Part shown: positions 2,007-10,554 of the stretch, piece by piece
Numbering within the stretch: position 1 is the first letter of the stretch
Layout: every line of letters starts with the position of its first letter
Assembly: GCA_024697885.1 (NCBI GenBank)
Contig: JAILSA010000108.1
Coordinates: 1-11,379, forward strand
Length of the DNA stretch: 11,379 bases
Direction of reading: 5' to 3'
From: Eubacterium sp.
GTDB taxonomy: Bacteria; Bacillota; Clostridia; Lachnospirales; Lachnospiraceae
Translations under genes and position numbers: made by a program
The notes under the pieces: model-generated
Seen by the model: the letters and a program-made list of their open reading frames with translations, nothing else
Databases searched by the model: none
Told to the model about the DNA's origin: nothing

Positions 2007-4259
2007 ATGAACCAATACTTAGATAAATGGGTCGGCAGAGTCTTGATGAAGGAACTGAGAGAAGGGGTGATCAACGCCCCTCAGGACCTTTTGGGCTGTC
2101 ATATCTTCGAGGAAGAGGGCGTTCAGATTTTCACTGCCTATCGACCATGTGCAGAGTCTATTGTCCTCTTAAATGGCCGCGGCGAGGAGCTGGGCCAGAT
2201 GGAGCCCATGGAATTAGAAGGTCTTTTTGGCTATGTCATTGAGAAAAAGGCCAAGAGAATCAAAAAGTACAAGTTCCGGGTAAAATACGGGGACAATGAT
2301 GTGGTTGACATTGACGATCCCTACGCCTACCCTATGGCAATCAGCGATTTTGACTGCTATATCTTCGGGGAGGGCAGGAACTATACAATTTATGAAAAGC
2401 TAGGTGCCCATCCTGAGAAAATCAAGGGTGTGACGGGTACCAGGTTTGCGGTCTGGGCGCCGGATGCCAGAAGCGTCAGTGTAGTGGGTTCCTTCAATAT
2501 GTGGGACGGCCGCCTACACAAGATGATGCTCCACGGAGGCAGCGGTATTTTTGAACTCTTTGTCCCAGGTGCTTGGGAGGGCGCCTCCTATAAGTACGAG
2601 ATTATCTCCAGGGACGGGGAAAAAATTTACAAGACAGACCCTTACGGCAATTTTGCCGAGAGAAGGCCGGACAACGCCTCACGCATTTGCTCCTTAGAGG
2701 GCTACAAGTGGGGGGACAAGGCCTATATGAAAAAGCGCCGGGAGACCAGTCCTGAGGAGAGAGACAGGTCCCCAATGAATATTTACGAAGTCCACCTGGC
2801 CTCTTGGAAAAAGAGGGTAGAGGATGACGACAACGGCAACTACTCCTACCGCGAGTTAGCTGCCATGCTGGGAGACTACGTGGTGGAAATGGGCTACACC
2901 CATGTGGAGCTCATGGGAATTGCGGAGTATCCTTTTGACGGGTCCTGGGGTTATCAGGTAGGTTGCTACTACGCTCCTACCAGCCGCTACGGAGAGCCTA
3001 AGGACTTTATGTACTTTGTGGATGAACTCCACCAGAGGGGAATTCAGGTGATTTTGGACTGGGTACCTGCTCATTTTCCAAGGGATGCTCACTGCCTGGG
3101 ACGGTTTGATGGTCAGGCCCTCTACGAGCACCCGGACAAGAGAAGGGGAGAGCACCCGGACTGGGGAACCTATATCTTTGACTACGGTCGCAAGGAGGTT
3201 TCGAACTTCCTGATTGCCAATGCCCTCTACTGGATTGAGACCTTCCATATTGACGGCCTTCGAGTGGACGCCGTGGCCTCCATGCTCTATTTGGATTATG
3301 GAAAGCAGGACGGCCAGTGGCTGCCAAACAAGGACGGCGGCAATGAGCACTATGAGGCGGTAGAATTTATCCGCCACCTAAATACGATTGTGGCCAAGGA
3401 GCACGCAGACGCCTACATTATTGCGGAGGAGTCCACCGCCTGGCCGGGAGTCACAAGGCCAGCCAAGGAGGGGGGCTTAGGCTTTTCCTACAAGTGGAAC
3501 ATGGGCTGGATGAATGACTTTTTGGAGTATATGAAGTTGGATCCATATTTTAAGCAGTTCCACCAAGACCAGCTCTGCTTTAGCATCGACTACTATTTGA
3601 GTGAAAAATACGTCCTGGTCTTGTCCCATGACGAGGTGGTTCACGGCAAGTGTTCACTTCTCAACAAGATGCCAGGACTTGAGGGTGACAAGTATGCAGC
3701 TCTCCGGGCGGCCTATGGATTTATGTACGGCCATCCGGGCAAAAAACTTCTCTTTATGGGACAGGAATTTGCCCAGAAGAGGGAGTGGGCGGAGTACCGC
3801 AGTTTGGACTGGTGGCTGATGGACCAGGATCCAAGGCACCGACAGATGCAGGACTACATCAAGGCCCTCAACGAGATTTACAAAAAATACGATGCCCTCT
3901 ACTACAATGATTTTGACATTATGGGATTTGAGTGGATGGATTGCTGGAGACCAGAAACCAGCACCGTGGCCTTTGTGCGAAGGGGAAGCACAGCGGAAAA
4001 ACAGCTGATGTTTATCTTGAACTTCACCCCAGTGGCCCATGAAAAATACACTGTCAAGGTTCCATGTGGAGGAAGCTTCCGAGAGATTTTGAATTCTGAC
4101 GAGGAGCGCTTTGGCGGCCTCGGTCGCATCAATCGGGCGGCCCTTAAGGCCAGGGAGGCAGACAGATACAATTACAAGGGACAGATGGAGCACATCCATG
4201 AGATCGAGCTCTACCTGCCACCTCTGTCAGCATTAGTTTTGGAATATGATTACAAGTAG
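2007..4259 (+). CDS. glgB: 1,4-alpha-glucan (glycogen) branching enzyme
   Basis: GlgB cuts alpha-1,4-glucan chains and re-attaches them as alpha-1,6 branches. The 750 residues hold an N1 module (about 28-112), a CBM48 module (about 144-230, with FAVWAPDARSV and GSFNMWDG), a GH13 barrel, and a C-terminal beta domain. The four GH13 regions are intact: region I DWVPAHF (D351, H356), region II GLRVDAV (nucleophile D421), region III AEEST (acid/base E474), region IV LSHDEV (D542). The spacings 421-474-542 equal those I recall for E. coli GlgB (405-458-526), each shifted by 16, which argues for an intact enzyme with an E. coli-like N1 extension. Short Bacillus-type GlgB (about 630-670 residues) generally lacks N1. 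The ATG at 2007 has GGAGGG at 1998-2003. A strong terminator follows. No glgC, glgA or glgP is visible in the window. Confidence 0.96.
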   Translation: MNQYLDKWVGRVLMKELREGVINAPQDLLGCHIFEEEGVQIFTAYRPCAESIVLLNGRGEELGQMEPMELEGLFGYVIEKKAKRIKKYKFRVKYGDNDVVDIDDPYAYPMAISDFDCYIFGEGRNYTIYEKLGAHPEKIKGVTGTRFAVWAPDARSVSVVGSFNMWDGRLHKMMLHGGSGIFELFVPGAWEGASYKYEIISRDGEKIYKTDPYGNFAERRPDNASRICSLEGYKWGDKAYMKKRRETSPEERDRSPMNIYEVHLASWKKRVEDDDNGNYSYRELAAMLGDYVVEMGYTHVELMGIAEYPFDGSWGYQVGCYYAPTSRYGEPKDFMYFVDELHQRGIQVILDWVPAHFPRDAHCLGRFDGQALYEHPDKRRGEHPDWGTYIFDYGRKEVSNFLIANALYWIETFHIDGLRVDAVASMLYLDYGKQDGQWLPNKDGGNEHYEAVEFIRHLNTIVAKEHADAYIIAEESTAWPGVTRPAKEGGLGFSYKWNMGWMNDFLEYMKLDPYFKQFHQDQLCFSIDYYLSEKYVLVLSHDEVVHGKCSLLNKMPGLEGDKYAALRAAYGFMYGHPGKKLLFMGQEFAQKREWAEYRSLDWWLMDQDPRHRQMQDYIKALNEIYKKYDALYYNDFDIMGFEWMDCWRPETSTVAFVRRGSTAEKQLMFILNFTPVAHEKYTVKVPCGGSFREILNSDEERFGGLGRINRAALKAREADRYNYKGQMEHIHEIELYLPPLSALVLEYDYK

Positions 4260-6214: not shown

Positions 6215-6479
6215 TCCGTGCAGCCGGGGAGTTAGCGGTGCCCTGTACCTGCAATCCGCTATAGCAGGGGTGTTGTCTTATCGAGGGTTTGAGGATGAAG
6301 CGCTGCCCACAGTAAGTGACGTTGACGCCTGGGTCTTGCGCAACAGGATCTTGTGAACCGTGTCAGGTCAGGAATGAAGCAGCACTAAGCAAACCTTCCT
6401 GTGTGACGCGAGGAAGCCTGGGCCGAGTAGGCTGCTGTGGTAACGGCTACTGAATCTTATTCGACATAAGACGCACGGA
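6215..6479 (+). ncRNA. ffs: signal recognition particle RNA, large (Alu-containing) type
   Basis: This is the RNA scaffold of the signal recognition particle, which binds Ffh and targets nascent membrane and secreted proteins to FtsY/SecYEG. The Ffh-binding domain IV is clear at about 6361-6389: GTCAGGTC, a GGAA tetraloop (6371-6374), then GAAGCAGCACTAAG. The Alu domain is recognisable near the 5' end (GGGGAGTTAGCGGTG, then CCTGCAATCCGCTATAGCAGG, about 6226-6270). The ends pair through CCGTGC (6216-6221) and GCACGG (6473-6478), extended by T6215-A6479. A span of about 265 bases matches the roughly 270-nt Bacillus scRNA. The two bases flanking the GGAA tetraloop are A and T rather than the usual C and G. 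No strong terminator follows, so transcription may continue into the next gene. The ends are inferred from pairing and could be off by a few bases. Confidence 0.93.
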
Positions 6480-6505: not shown

Positions 6506-8572
6506 ATGAACAAGCGTCGTGACATGGCACGCAGAAGTGCCCTGGTCAGAGAACTAATTGATGACAACCAATACATTGAAGCTTTGCAGGTTATAGATGG
6601 AATGGATTTAGAGTCGGTGGAGTCCACCAGTGATCTAAATCTTTTTGCTGACCTATACGAAAAGGCAGAGCGTTTTGATAAGAAAAAAGAAATATATTAC
6701 ATTTTATATAAGCGCAATCATTCTCGTTATGTACTTAACAGATTATTGCGCCTTGTTTTGCGTATGGGGGATATGGAAGAGGCCAGAGAACTTTTTTTGG
6801 CTTACGAAATGGCCGGGGATGTAACCCTGGATACCTTCGAACTCCGCTATCTCCTTGCCAAGGCAGAGGGAGCCTCTAGAACGGTTTTGATTGACATTTT
6901 GGAGGAACTTAAGCAGGAAGAATTTACAGAGGAGTGGGGCTACCAGCTGGCCCGTCTCTACGAGCAGGAGGGAAGAAGACAGGATTGTATCCGTGTCTGC
7001 GATGATATTGTCCTCTGGTTTGGAAGTGGAAAAATCGTAGAGAAGGCCAAGATTCTCAAAGAAGAGGTGGAGTCCGACGACTGGGAGCCATCCAGCGAGG
7101 AAGATATTCCAGAAGTGGAGGAAGTGGATCCAGAGGAGATTATCCCTTATGCCGCTGCTCCAATTAAGGTAAGTGATTTTGAGGACGAGGAAGAAGAGGA
7201 AGAGGAGGACCAGCCGGCAGTCATTGAGGACGAGGGCGTAGCAGGACTTATGGAAGAGATTCCAGTCCGCAAGAGACCGCAGCCAGTACAGGTGGACATT
7301 CCACAGACAGTGATAGACCCAGCTGTGACCAATCTCGAGGTGGACCAGGAGACCTTAGACCAGGAGGAAGAGGTCCCAGAAGTCAAAAAAGCCACCTTAA
7401 AGGATGAAATTAAAACCCTTGACCGCAGCCAACAGGAGGAGGCTCCGGCCAGCGAGGGCTTGATTGTAGATGAGGAAGTGGCGGAGCCAGTAGAAGAGGC
7501 CCCAGCCCAGAAGGGATTTTTCTCCAAGTTGGTAGATTTTCTCAGAGGGGACCTAGACCAGGATGTAGGACCTGAAGATGAGGATGAGTTGACCGAGGCC
7601 TCCGACGAGGAGTACATAGATGAGGACGAGGACTACGATGAGGAAGAATACGAAGACGAGGAATACGAAGACGAGGAAGATTCAGACGAGGATTCTTCCG
7701 AAGTTTTAGAAGAAGGTCTAGAAGAGGCTGTAGAAGAAGAGGCTGTAGAAGAGGCCCAAGAAGACTCTCAAGAAGACCCAATGGATGAACTCAAGGCAGA
7801 GCTCAGCCAGTCCATGGCAGTGGAAATGGACGTGGAGGAAATGCCAGTGGTTCACAAGAAGCCGGCGGACTCCAGCAAGAAGGAAGATTTGGCATCCTCT
7901 GTCCAGGAGATTATGGAGGCCCAGCCTGTGGAGCCAATCCCTATGGAGGTTCCAAGTAAAAAGAAAATTACAGATACCCTGGATTTAAATGACACCCTAG
8001 ATATGCCAGAGGTGAGAAGGGCCCTTGAGGGAGCCCCACTCCAGATGGAGGTGGAGGAGGACACCAAGCCTCTTCAGATGGAGGTTCAGGTGGAAAAAGA
8101 AGCTCCCCGCATGGAGGTCAGACCCAATATAGAGCCAGAGGACATTTCAGAAAATGGAATTTCCTACCAGACCCTAAAGGCCACCATGAGTCACCTGGCC
8201 AAGCACGAGACCCCTCTCCACTTTGCCTTTGCCGGAGGCGAGGATCGGATTAACCTGGCAGTGGCAAAGCGCCTCACCAAGGAATTAAACAAAATCGGAT
8301 ATTTTTCTGCCGGAAGCATTAATCGAATTTCCGCAGAAAAGCTGAATGAAATAGAGCTAATTGACCAGGAAGAAAAAATGTTAGGTGGCTGTACCCTGAT
8401 TACCCAAGCACCTGAGTTGAACCAGAAGTCCGTATACGATCTGATTCACTGCATGAAAAAATACCAGGGACAGGCGGTTGTCATGCTGTCCGGTCCTTTC
8501 GATGAGATGGATTGCTTCCTGGCAAACTATCCGGAACTTGCAGAACTTTTTGATTACAAGGTAAGAATGTAA
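6506..8572 (+). CDS. TPR-like/acidic protein with a degenerate CbxX/CfxQ-type AAA+ domain
   Basis: This 688-residue protein is not one I know by name; its function is unknown. Residues 8-190 are helical and TPR-like, for example GYQLARLYEQEG (145-156) and helix-turn-helix pairs at 14-34, 44-70 and 74-100. Residues 190-550 are extremely acidic and presumably disordered, rich in E, D, V and P, with tandem YEDEE and EEAVE repeats and three QMEV/RMEV motifs near 515-545. A short amphipathic stretch, GFFSKLVDFLRG (337-348), interrupts the acid region. Residues 553-688 resemble a CbxX/CfxQ/SpoVK AAA+ domain, aligning without gaps around each motif, but the catalytic residues are gone: FAGGEDRINLAVAK replaces FTGNPGTGKTTVAR (N583 for the lysine), GGCTLITQA replaces GGVLFIDEA (T633, Q634), and L681 stands at the SRF arginine. 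It is therefore probably a non-hydrolysing scaffold or regulator (inference). No signal peptide or membrane span is visible. ATG 6506 has AAGGGG at 6492-6497. No separate promoter is convincing, so read-through from ffs is likely. Confidence 0.85.
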   Translation: MNKRRDMARRSALVRELIDDNQYIEALQVIDGMDLESVESTSDLNLFADLYEKAERFDKKKEIYYILYKRNHSRYVLNRLLRLVLRMGDMEEARELFLAYEMAGDVTLDTFELRYLLAKAEGASRTVLIDILEELKQEEFTEEWGYQLARLYEQEGRRQDCIRVCDDIVLWFGSGKIVEKAKILKEEVESDDWEPSSEEDIPEVEEVDPEEIIPYAAAPIKVSDFEDEEEEEEEDQPAVIEDEGVAGLMEEIPVRKRPQPVQVDIPQTVIDPAVTNLEVDQETLDQEEEVPEVKKATLKDEIKTLDRSQQEEAPASEGLIVDEEVAEPVEEAPAQKGFFSKLVDFLRGDLDQDVGPEDEDELTEASDEEYIDEDEDYDEEEYEDEEYEDEEDSDEDSSEVLEEGLEEAVEEEAVEEAQEDSQEDPMDELKAELSQSMAVEMDVEEMPVVHKKPADSSKKEDLASSVQEIMEAQPVEPIPMEVPSKKKITDTLDLNDTLDMPEVRRALEGAPLQMEVEEDTKPLQMEVQVEKEAPRMEVRPNIEPEDISENGISYQTLKATMSHLAKHETPLHFAFAGGEDRINLAVAKRLTKELNKIGYFSAGSINRISAEKLNEIELIDQEEKMLGGCTLITQAPELNQKSVYDLIHCMKKYQGQAVVMLSGPFDEMDCFLANYPELAELFDYKVRM
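7646..7675 (+). repeat. tandem 15-base direct repeat (two copies) in the acidic region
   Basis: GAATACGAAGACGAG occurs at 7646-7660 and again, identically, at 7661-7675. It encodes two copies of EYEDE inside the Asp/Glu-rich linker of the 688-residue protein. The flanking GACTACGATGAG (7631-7642) looks like a diverged further unit. Confidence 0.9.
7721..7750 (+). repeat. second tandem 15-base direct repeat (two copies)
   Basis: GAAGAGGCTGTAGAA occurs at 7721-7735 and again, identically, at 7736-7750. It encodes EEAVE twice, followed by a partial third unit (EEA). It lies 45 bases after the other 15-base repeat and has the same unit length. Confidence 0.9.
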
Positions 8573-9216: not shown

Positions 9217-9245
9217 GAATAGGATTAAATACGTTTCAATCGTTT

Positions 9246-9250
9246 GGAGG
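9246..9250 (+). promoter_or_regulatory. ribosome binding site of murA
   Basis: GGAGG at 9246-9250 lies five bases before ATG 9256. An in-frame TTG at 9244 overlaps this site and cannot be the start. With ATG 9256 the conserved residues fall at E. coli MurA numbering (K22, N23, D305, R397), which confirms the choice. Confidence 0.9.
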
Positions 9251-9255
9251 TAAAG

Positions 9256-10554
9256 ATGAAACAGTATATTATAAAAGGTGGTACCCCCTTAAGAGGAGAG
9301 GTCGTTATCGGTGGTGCCAAGAATGCAGCCCTGGGAATTATCGTGGCAGCGATTATGGCAGATGAGCCAGTGAAAATTGAAAACTTGCCGGATGTTGATG
9401 ATGTCCGGGTTTTATTAGATGCAATCGAGGGCATTGGAGCCATTGTAGAGAGGATTGACACACATACAGTCCGCATCAACGGAGCCCTGATTAATGATGT
9501 AAATGTAGATGAAGATGCCATCCGCAAGATTCGCGGTTCCTACTATTTGGTAGGGGCTCTTCTTGGAAAATACAAGAAGGCCATGGTAGCCCTTCCAGGA
9601 GGATGCCAGATCGGAAGCCGTCCAATTGACCAGCACATTAAGGGTTTTGAGCAGTTGGGTGCAGAGGTTACGATCCACCACGGAAAGATTGATGCCAGAG
9701 CCGAGGCCCTGGTAGGTCACCATATTTACCTAGACTGCCCAAGCGTAGGTGCAACCATTAATATTATGATGGCGGCCTGCATGGCAGAGGGCAAGACAAT
9801 TATTGAAAATCCAGCCAAGGAGCCACACATTGTAGATGTGGCCAACTTCTTAAATAGTATGGGAGCCAATATCAAGGGAGCCGGTACGGATGCCATAAGA
9901 ATCCGCGGTGTGGAGAGCCTGCACGGCAGTGAATACTCCATTATTCCGGACCAGATTGAGGCGGGAACCTACATGCTGGCAGTGGCAGCAACCAGGGGAG
10001 ATGTTTATATCAAAAATGTAATCCCTAAGCACTTGGAGGCCATTACGGCCAAGCTGATTGAAATCGGTGCCCAGGTGGAGGAGTTTGACGACTGCGTTCA
10101 TGTCAAGGCAGACCACAGGTTGGGATATGCCAATGTAAAGACCATGCCATATCCTGGATTTCCAACGGATATGCAGCCACAGATGACAACCCTTTTGGCC
10201 CTGTCTCAGGGAACAAGTATTGTGACAGAGACAATTTTTGAGACCAGATTTAAGTATGTGGGCGAGCTCAGACGCATGGGAGCCAACATTACAGTAGAGG
10301 GCAATGCAGCCTTTATCACAGGAGTGGAGGGGCTTACAGGTGCCCAGGTCAGTGCACCGGACTTGCGTGCCGGAGCAGCTCTTGTCATGGCAGGACTGGC
10401 AGGCGAGGGTTATACCTATGTAGACCAGATTCAGTACATCGAGAGAGGTTACGAGAACTTTGCCGAGAAGATTCGCGGCATGGGTGGCCACATGGAAAAG
10501 ATTGATTCAGAAGATGAAAGGGCAATTCGCAAGTTCAAGATGAAAGTTTCATAA
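9256..10554 (+). CDS. murA: UDP-N-acetylglucosamine 1-carboxyvinyltransferase
   Basis: MurA catalyses the first committed step of peptidoglycan synthesis in the cytoplasm, transferring enolpyruvate from PEP to UDP-GlcNAc. The 432-residue protein has the family's two-domain inverted alpha/beta barrel length. Key residues are present: K22-N23 in GGAKNAALG, the loop cysteine C117 in LPGGCQIGSRP (E. coli C115, the fosfomycin target), D305 in PGFPTDMQPQ, and R397 in IERGYE. Presence of the cysteine predicts fosfomycin sensitivity of the enzyme, unlike the Cys-to-Asp variants of mycobacteria and chlamydiae. Many Firmicutes carry two paralogues (MurAA/MurA1 and MurAB/MurZ); which one this is cannot be decided from the sequence alone. 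It has its own promoter and a terminator, so it is probably a single-gene transcript. Confidence 0.96.
   Translation: MKQYIIKGGTPLRGEVVIGGAKNAALGIIVAAIMADEPVKIENLPDVDDVRVLLDAIEGIGAIVERIDTHTVRINGALINDVNVDEDAIRKIRGSYYLVGALLGKYKKAMVALPGGCQIGSRPIDQHIKGFEQLGAEVTIHHGKIDARAEALVGHHIYLDCPSVGATINIMMAACMAEGKTIIENPAKEPHIVDVANFLNSMGANIKGAGTDAIRIRGVESLHGSEYSIIPDQIEAGTYMLAVAATRGDVYIKNVIPKHLEAITAKLIEIGAQVEEFDDCVHVKADHRLGYANVKTMPYPGFPTDMQPQMTTLLALSQGTSIVTETIFETRFKYVGELRRMGANITVEGNAAFITGVEGLTGAQVSAPDLRAGAALVMAGLAGEGYTYVDQIQYIERGYENFAEKIRGMGGHMEKIDSEDERAIRKFKMKVS

Follow-up and report, generated by a model that had tools for sequence, protein, structure and literature searches.

Catalytically dead AAA+ domains are a known kind, and a gene in a Lachnospiraceae contig raises the question of whether its product carries one that is kept by selection and what such a domain could still do. 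The window, that is, the whole 11,379-nucleotide stretch of contig JAILSA010000108.1 (Eubacterium sp., assembly GCA_024697885.1) that was analysed, contains an open reading frame at 6506-8572 on the forward strand. The ORF call and its translation (688 codons, 688 amino acids) agree with the first-pass annotation that the frame is intact. We divided the product as follows.

6506..8572, forward strand: gene for the TPR - acidic linker - pseudo-CbxX AAA+ protein (intact ORF, homologues, conserved layout)
6506..7096, forward strand: N-terminal TPR domain, residues 1-197, 11 helices (AlphaFold, Foldseek, Pfam TPR_2 in orthologue L054)
7097..8146, forward strand: acidic variable linker, residues 198-547, 36% Asp/Glu (composition; poor conservation in alignment A1)
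8147..8569, forward strand: pseudo-AAA+ core of CbxX/SpoVK type, residues 548-688 (profile searches, predicted fold)

Domain layout and identity of the C-terminal core

AlphaFold modelled the N-terminal domain with a pLDDT of 95.1 and a pTM of 0.81 from a shallow input alignment (19 rows, as for the C-domain), and the top Foldseek matches of this domain were TPR proteins. Pfam TPR_2 fell below its cut-off in the window protein and above it in L054 (6.3e-8). The two-domain layout was kept across the 23 representatives in alignment A1. An amphipathic-looking linker stretch, 337-349 in the window protein, was spotted by eye in that alignment; a scan of the linker found no stretch common to the whole family and did not pick 337-349 in the window.

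The C-terminal domain proposed in the first-pass annotation stood, although its start moved from residue 553 to nearer 548 (position 8147). Pfam returned no AAA+ match for the window protein even at E 1. Searched alone against NCBIfam, the domain matched SpoVK (2.7e-4) and CbbX (6.4e-4), both far under the equivalog cut-offs (for SpoVK, TIGR02881, 20.1 bits with a cut-off of 422.95). All 19 family representatives searched matched both models (best 3.3e-8 for SpoVK and 1.2e-7 for CbbX), and a profile of the 19 rows found CbbX among structures at 1.6e-6 and EccA1 (9lur) at 0.029. Comparison with nine true CbxX proteins by hhalign gave 98.3% and an E of 1.3e-14, the latter applying to that single comparison. 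A match to TIGR04479, a P-methyltransferase model (E 0.002; 6 of the 19 rows), was taken as chance. The AlphaFold model of the C-domain had an AAA+ fold, with CbbX ranked first among solved structures in the structure search, and a non-AAA+ fold was not seen. The domain is homologous to CbxX/SpoVK proteins, as the annotation had proposed from sequence, and neither an absent profile match nor a different fold, its suggested grounds for doubt, was encountered. With the TPR array at its N-terminus, the protein almost certainly carries a selected, non-canonical AAA+ core of CbxX/SpoVK type.

Loss of catalytic and sensing motifs

We aligned the window protein with 14 true CbxX proteins from Lachnospiraceae using MAFFT, and scored, besides the Walker motifs, the clade signatures given in PMC10659427, namely the sensor-1 GY, the Asn upstream of the first finger Arg, and the sensor-2 Arg in the lid. 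The sites concerned are these.

8234..8260, forward strand: former Walker A/P-loop, GGEDRINLA, residues 577-585, with N583 at the Lys position
8345..8347, forward strand: N614 at the deleted pore-loop site (alignment column)
8384..8413, forward strand: former Walker B, GGCTLITQAP, residues 627-636, with T633-Q634 at the Asp-Glu positions
8477..8509, forward strand: former sensor-1 strand, VVMLSGPFDEM, residues 658-668, with GY replaced by GP
8528..8554, forward strand: former arginine-finger segment, YPELAELFD, residues 675-683, with Y675 for the conserved Asn and L681 for Arg

All residues quoted in the first-pass annotation were found at the positions it gave: the P-loop block at 572-588 (HFAFAGGEDRINLAVAK) with N583, the Walker B block at 627-635 (GGCTLITQA) with T633-Q634, and the finger block at 662-682 (SGPFDEMDCFLANYPELAELF) with L681. 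In the alignment N583 fell opposite the P-loop Lys, T633 opposite the Walker B Asp and L681 opposite the arginine-finger Arg, which confirmed that the P-loop Lys, the Walker B DE and the arginine finger are all replaced. As patterns, the window protein lacks Walker A GxxxxGK[ST] (GGEDRINLA instead), Walker B hhhhDE (TLITQA) and the sensor-1 GY signature (SGP), and the finger Arg is also absent at +4 from Y675 (A679).

The losses went further than the motifs named there, since the pore loop and the entire C-terminal lid are gone as well, which the annotation had missed. The core ends with its fifth strand; only 5 residues remain past the finger segment, and the sensor-2 Arg is absent with the lid. 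The 7-residue CbxX segment deleted throughout the family is one that we take to be the pore loop. All tested catalytic and sensing motifs, the pore loop and the lid are thus lost from the window protein. Conserved residues lie at the former P-loop, where H, F, F, A, G and G were invariant in 19 rows, and at N614, a derived and near-invariant site where 96% of the 121 family rows have Asn and 14/14 CbxX have Val.

We then counted each feature over 121 family rows, the window included, against the 14 true CbxX proteins, after dropping L040 (the same gene as L016), the duplicates L006, L009 and L030-L039, and L027 (C-domain incomplete). Walker A was kept in 40/121 family rows, all of them lid-bearing, compared with 13/14 CbxX, and the Walker B DE in 2/121 compared with 14/14; no family row combined the two (0/121, compared with 13/14). 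The arginine finger (L681 column) was present in 10/121 rows, the Asn upstream of it in 43/121, the sensor-2 Arg in 12/121 and the GY in 0/121, each compared with 14/14 CbxX. A pore-loop segment of at least 5 residues was found in 0/121 family rows and 14/14 CbxX, the segment measuring 1 residue in 120/121 rows, 3 in 1/121, and 7 in 14/14 true CbxX. The lid was present in 93/121 rows, compared with 14/14 CbxX; L164 is uninformative for the lid, and leaving it out gave 92/120 with all other counts unchanged. Among the lid-less rows, which include the close homologues in which intact Walker motifs had been proposed as a sign of local decay, 0/28 kept Walker A. The Walker loss is therefore fixed in the lid-less clade; family-wide it is stepwise and not fixed, as the 40 rows with Walker A attest.

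A near-universal family of Lachnospiraceae under purifying selection

Used as query, the C-terminal region found 86 homologues besides the window protein. A profile of the N-domain matched 236/250 Lachnospiraceae genomes, and 193/201 of those of good quality; nine of the 236 listed two or three matches and the rest one. The weakest N-domain match within Lachnospiraceae was at 3.4e-16. Beyond it, two wider samples that partly overlap gave 24 matches (8 + 16 genomes), of which only those in G307 (3.7e-14) and G600 (3.7e-21) were stronger than 1e-8. We fetched 38 N-positive loci within Lachnospiraceae, of which 34 came from genomes missed by the narrow C profile, two (G026 and G107) had earlier C matches and two (G299 and G339) did not belong to that sample; the C-domain was present in 37 of them, the sole miss being L161, whose ORF is cut by the contig end. 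Conversely, no TPR N-domain was detected in 12 of the first 84 rows of the family (L029, L050, L072, L077, L085, L089, L090, L091, L096, L099, L105 and L107), some of these ORFs being cut at contig ends and some apparently split into two genes. Taken together, these results place the window protein in an unnamed family that is nearly universal in Lachnospiraceae and mostly present as a single copy. Since it is matched in 236/250 genomes, the gene is likely important to these bacteria.

Two kinds of unusual row were seen. In L077, L089, L091 and L107 two family ORFs adjoin, as if duplicated or split: the first has the TPR N-domain but no detected pseudo-AAA+ core, and the second has the core but no detected N-domain. 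P0022 (574 aa) is a homologue whose start is unlike the TPR domain and which carries a precomputed PF02875, presumably a Mur ligase domain; it is perhaps an assembly chimera.

The disappearance of the catalytic motifs could in principle reflect local pseudogenisation, with the window gene being a decaying AAA+ gene without function. We regard this as having almost no chance of being correct, because the frame is intact, the losses are fixed across the clade, the gene is nearly universal, and dN/dS in the C-domain was 0.05-0.16 in the 8 of 12 close pairs for which dS could be calculated. The N-domain gave similar values, 0.03-0.14, in the 6 of 12 pairs that could be computed; the pairs were 9 lid-less and 3 lid-bearing, and 4 of 12 were uncomputable for the C-domain and 6 of 12 for the N-domain. 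The gene is under purifying selection, and the annotation's reading of a selected pseudo-ATPase rather than a decaying gene was borne out by the dN/dS range, the fixed losses and the wide presence.

Order of the losses

In an N-domain tree the lid-less rows formed one group, and lid loss required 1 change (support 75); with the long outgroup rows added, it required 2. Parsimony placed 9 changes in Walker A, or 10 or 11 on the tree with outgroup rows, and 14 losses when regain was barred on the unsure root. Well-supported branches force at least 3 changes for the Walker-A-plus group on the first tree and at least 5 on the outgroup tree. Rooting on L144 and L145 is unsure because both are very long branches and do not group, so for the order of losses we rely on motif retention in true CbxX and on parsimony. 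Taking the CbxX state as ancestral, we infer as the simplest order, on a root that is not secure, that the pore loop, the GY and most of the Walker B and finger residues were lost in the ancestor, the P-loop repeatedly, and the lid once.

The two outgroup proteins carry mostly intact CbxX modules. L144 (1336 aa, G600) has four CbxX modules and L145 (754 aa, G307; ORF open at the contig end) has two, and five of these six AAA+ modules are intact at Walker A and DE, at the GY, in the pore loop and at the finger Arg. The exception is the first module of L144, in which Walker B, sensor 1 and the arginine finger are degenerate. Intact TPR-CbxX proteins, P-loop-only ones and lid-less ones form a series in which the order of a motor's losses is directly testable.

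Partner ATPases and type VII secretion

A dead subunit could dock into, or regulate, the ring of an intact CbxX/SpoVK ATPase in the same cell, and the first-pass annotation had suggested looking for such a partner in the genome. True CbxX proteins were present in 89/250 Lachnospiraceae genomes, 87 of which bear the gene, and L011, among the three nearest relatives of the window protein, comes from a genome with a CbxX match of 183.6 bits. However, at E 1e-25 a true CbxX was missing from 149/236 gene-bearing genomes, and presence of the gene showed no significant association with CbxX (87/236 compared with 2/14, Fisher p 0.15). No SpoVK-like match exceeded 26.8 bits in the window's own genome, which is 79.5% complete, and none was found in the same-genus G108 (99% complete; best 10 candidates scored) or in G677, which carries L016 and seems to be identical with G108, where every candidate was scored. 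Within the lid-less clade, 3/19 genomes matched at E 1e-10, one of them weakly (42.4 bits). An intact partner is thus not a general rule, with the L011 genome as a counter-example, and we consider this role quite improbable. The N-domain of the window protein was nearer to those of L010-L012 (74-75%) than to that of the same-genus L016 (65%), which makes the bin or genus assignment of the contig somewhat doubtful.

A role as a type VII secretion chaperone like EccA would fit the order of TPR followed by a CbxX-type AAA+ domain, and 8/19 rows matched the EccA model weakly (best 3.7e-5). The distribution of EssC nevertheless speaks against it: EssC was above cut-off in 42/200 genomes (three candidates scored per genome) and the gene is in 236/250, and no EssC was above cut-off in the window's genome at its 79.5% completeness or in G108. 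These distributions largely refute a link to type VII secretion, and the role is very improbable.

Gene neighbourhood and candidate clients

Downstream of the window gene lie a flavin reductase gene and murA, and directly upstream lies an SRP RNA.

6216..6478, forward strand: large SRP RNA, directly upstream (Rfam RF01854, 179.4 bits)
9244..10554, forward strand: murA, downstream (protein family match)

In L013 (2665-4977), L041, L044, L046, L048 and L075, a gene for a protein of ~770 aa with an N-terminal cyclic-nucleotide-binding domain is upstream of the gene, sitting between it and the SRP RNA where the latter was found; in the window the SRP RNA directly precedes the gene.

The neighbouring genes differ between the two halves of the family, and each half suggests its own candidate client. 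In the lid-bearing half this is the glycogen branching enzyme GlgB, for which the protein would be a dedicated chaperone or scaffold. Of the 90 lid-bearing loci with at least 600 bp of downstream sequence, 40 had glgB, in the same orientation, as the next gene downstream, and in 30 of those 40 it followed within 40 bp. The other flanks varied in 18 such loci (largest shared group 4/18 upstream and 2/9 downstream), and the tree distance over which the adjacency extends has a median of 1.07 changes per column. Enzyme-dedicated chaperones do occur in the CbxX clade, according to PMC10659427. Against this, the adjacency needs only 5 tree changes and hence reflects one or few inherited events, and it was seen in 0/27 lid-less relatives. 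The gene is also present in two genomes without a glgB match (G186, 86% complete; G216, 95% complete), and glgB is so widespread (247/250 genomes at E 1e-60, 238 above cut-off) that its co-occurrence with the gene is uninformative. Dedication to GlgB is therefore a tentative proposal that we rate as unlikely, if the less so among the specific clients. The window does contain a glgB at 2007-4259, beyond trpS and tadA, whose product is a longer form of GlgB that has an additional N-terminal domain; its vicinity looks incidental, because glgB and the gene are on separate contigs in the same-genus G108.

In the window's own clade, the neighbourhood points instead to the envelope, where the protein might act on peptidoglycan precursor synthesis through MurA much as SpoVK acts on MurG, which it activates according to PMC10659427. 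murA lay at most 2 kb downstream in 17/22 lid-less loci with at least 2.5 kb of sequence. However, a flavin reductase gene is often in between, the arrangement occurred in only 2/18 lid-bearing loci with 2.5 kb of sequence, and the lid-less loci are so closely related that it may be a single inherited one. Adjacency alone being weak evidence, we hold a MurA role to be improbable.

A proposed ATP-free docking role

The explanation that we favour overall, with moderate confidence, is that the window protein is an ATP-free docking or assembly protein derived from a TPR-CbxX chaperone. The ancestor would have been such a chaperone, of EccA type, and its first losses, in the pore loop, Walker B and arginine finger, would have abolished substrate threading and hydrolysis, so that some lineages would have kept a nucleotide-binding fold at best. 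In the window's clade the P-loop and lid would then have been lost too. What remains would be a docking or assembly module that neither hydrolyses ATP nor threads substrate, and judging from its sequence the window protein is probably no longer working as a motor.

The long acidic linker would join the N-terminal TPR array to the C-terminal core of CbxX/SpoVK/EccA descent as a tether, with the TPR groove and the remodelled face of the former P-loop each holding one partner. We argue for a re-used surface from the conserved residues at the former P-loop and from N614. This adaptor mechanism of the window protein is somewhat better than an even bet. We limit the term nucleotide-independent to the window's clade, because 40/121 orthologues keep the P-loop motif, and the window protein may itself bind ATP by another mode. 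By analogy with CbbX (Rubisco), SpoVK (MurG) and EccA, the protein may be devoted to a single metabolic or envelope enzyme. A more specific version, in which stepwise losses traceable in present-day lineages (pore loop, Walker B and finger in the common ancestor; P-loop several times; lid once) turned a core protein of this large gut-associated family of bacteria from an enzyme-dedicated AAA+ chaperone into an ATP-free platform that organises glycogen branching enzyme in the glgB-linked lineages, is speculative and rather unlikely.

Comparison with known systems

The nearest known system is the CbbX (CbxX-CfxQ) Rubisco activase (PDB 3syl, 3zuh, 3syk), to which the AAA+ fold is nearest. Compared with CbbX, the window protein has no Walker A, Walker B, arginine finger, pore loop, GY or lid, and it has a TPR N-terminus. 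SpoVK (TIGR02881) is the best NCBIfam match of the domain, at 20.1 bits against 422.95, and differs in having the ATPase motifs that are absent from the window protein. L144 and L145, which belong to other bacterial families, resemble it in having a related N-domain (E 1.8e-21 and 7.1e-15) and CbxX modules, but five of their six modules are intact.

No Pfam or NCBIfam model names the family at the limits searched, the source annotations shown for three homologues all read "hypothetical protein", and our literature searches found no description of this CbxX-clade pseudo-ATPase family. The first-pass annotation had gone further and did not recognise the architecture itself as a described one; that part did not fully hold, as L144 and L145 share the TPR-CbxX layout and EccA likewise combines a TPR N-terminus with a CbxX-clade AAA+ domain (PMC10659427), although no description of the family as such was found. 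The likeness to EccA is one of domain order and does not imply that the TPR fold of the window protein is homologous to the EccA TPR; unlike EccA, the window protein lacks the catalytic motifs, has a long acidic linker and has no link to type VII secretion. Thus, degenerate AAA+ domains were already known, this orthologous CbxX-clade pseudo-ATPase family appears to be undescribed, and the EccA-like layout is its nearest precedent.
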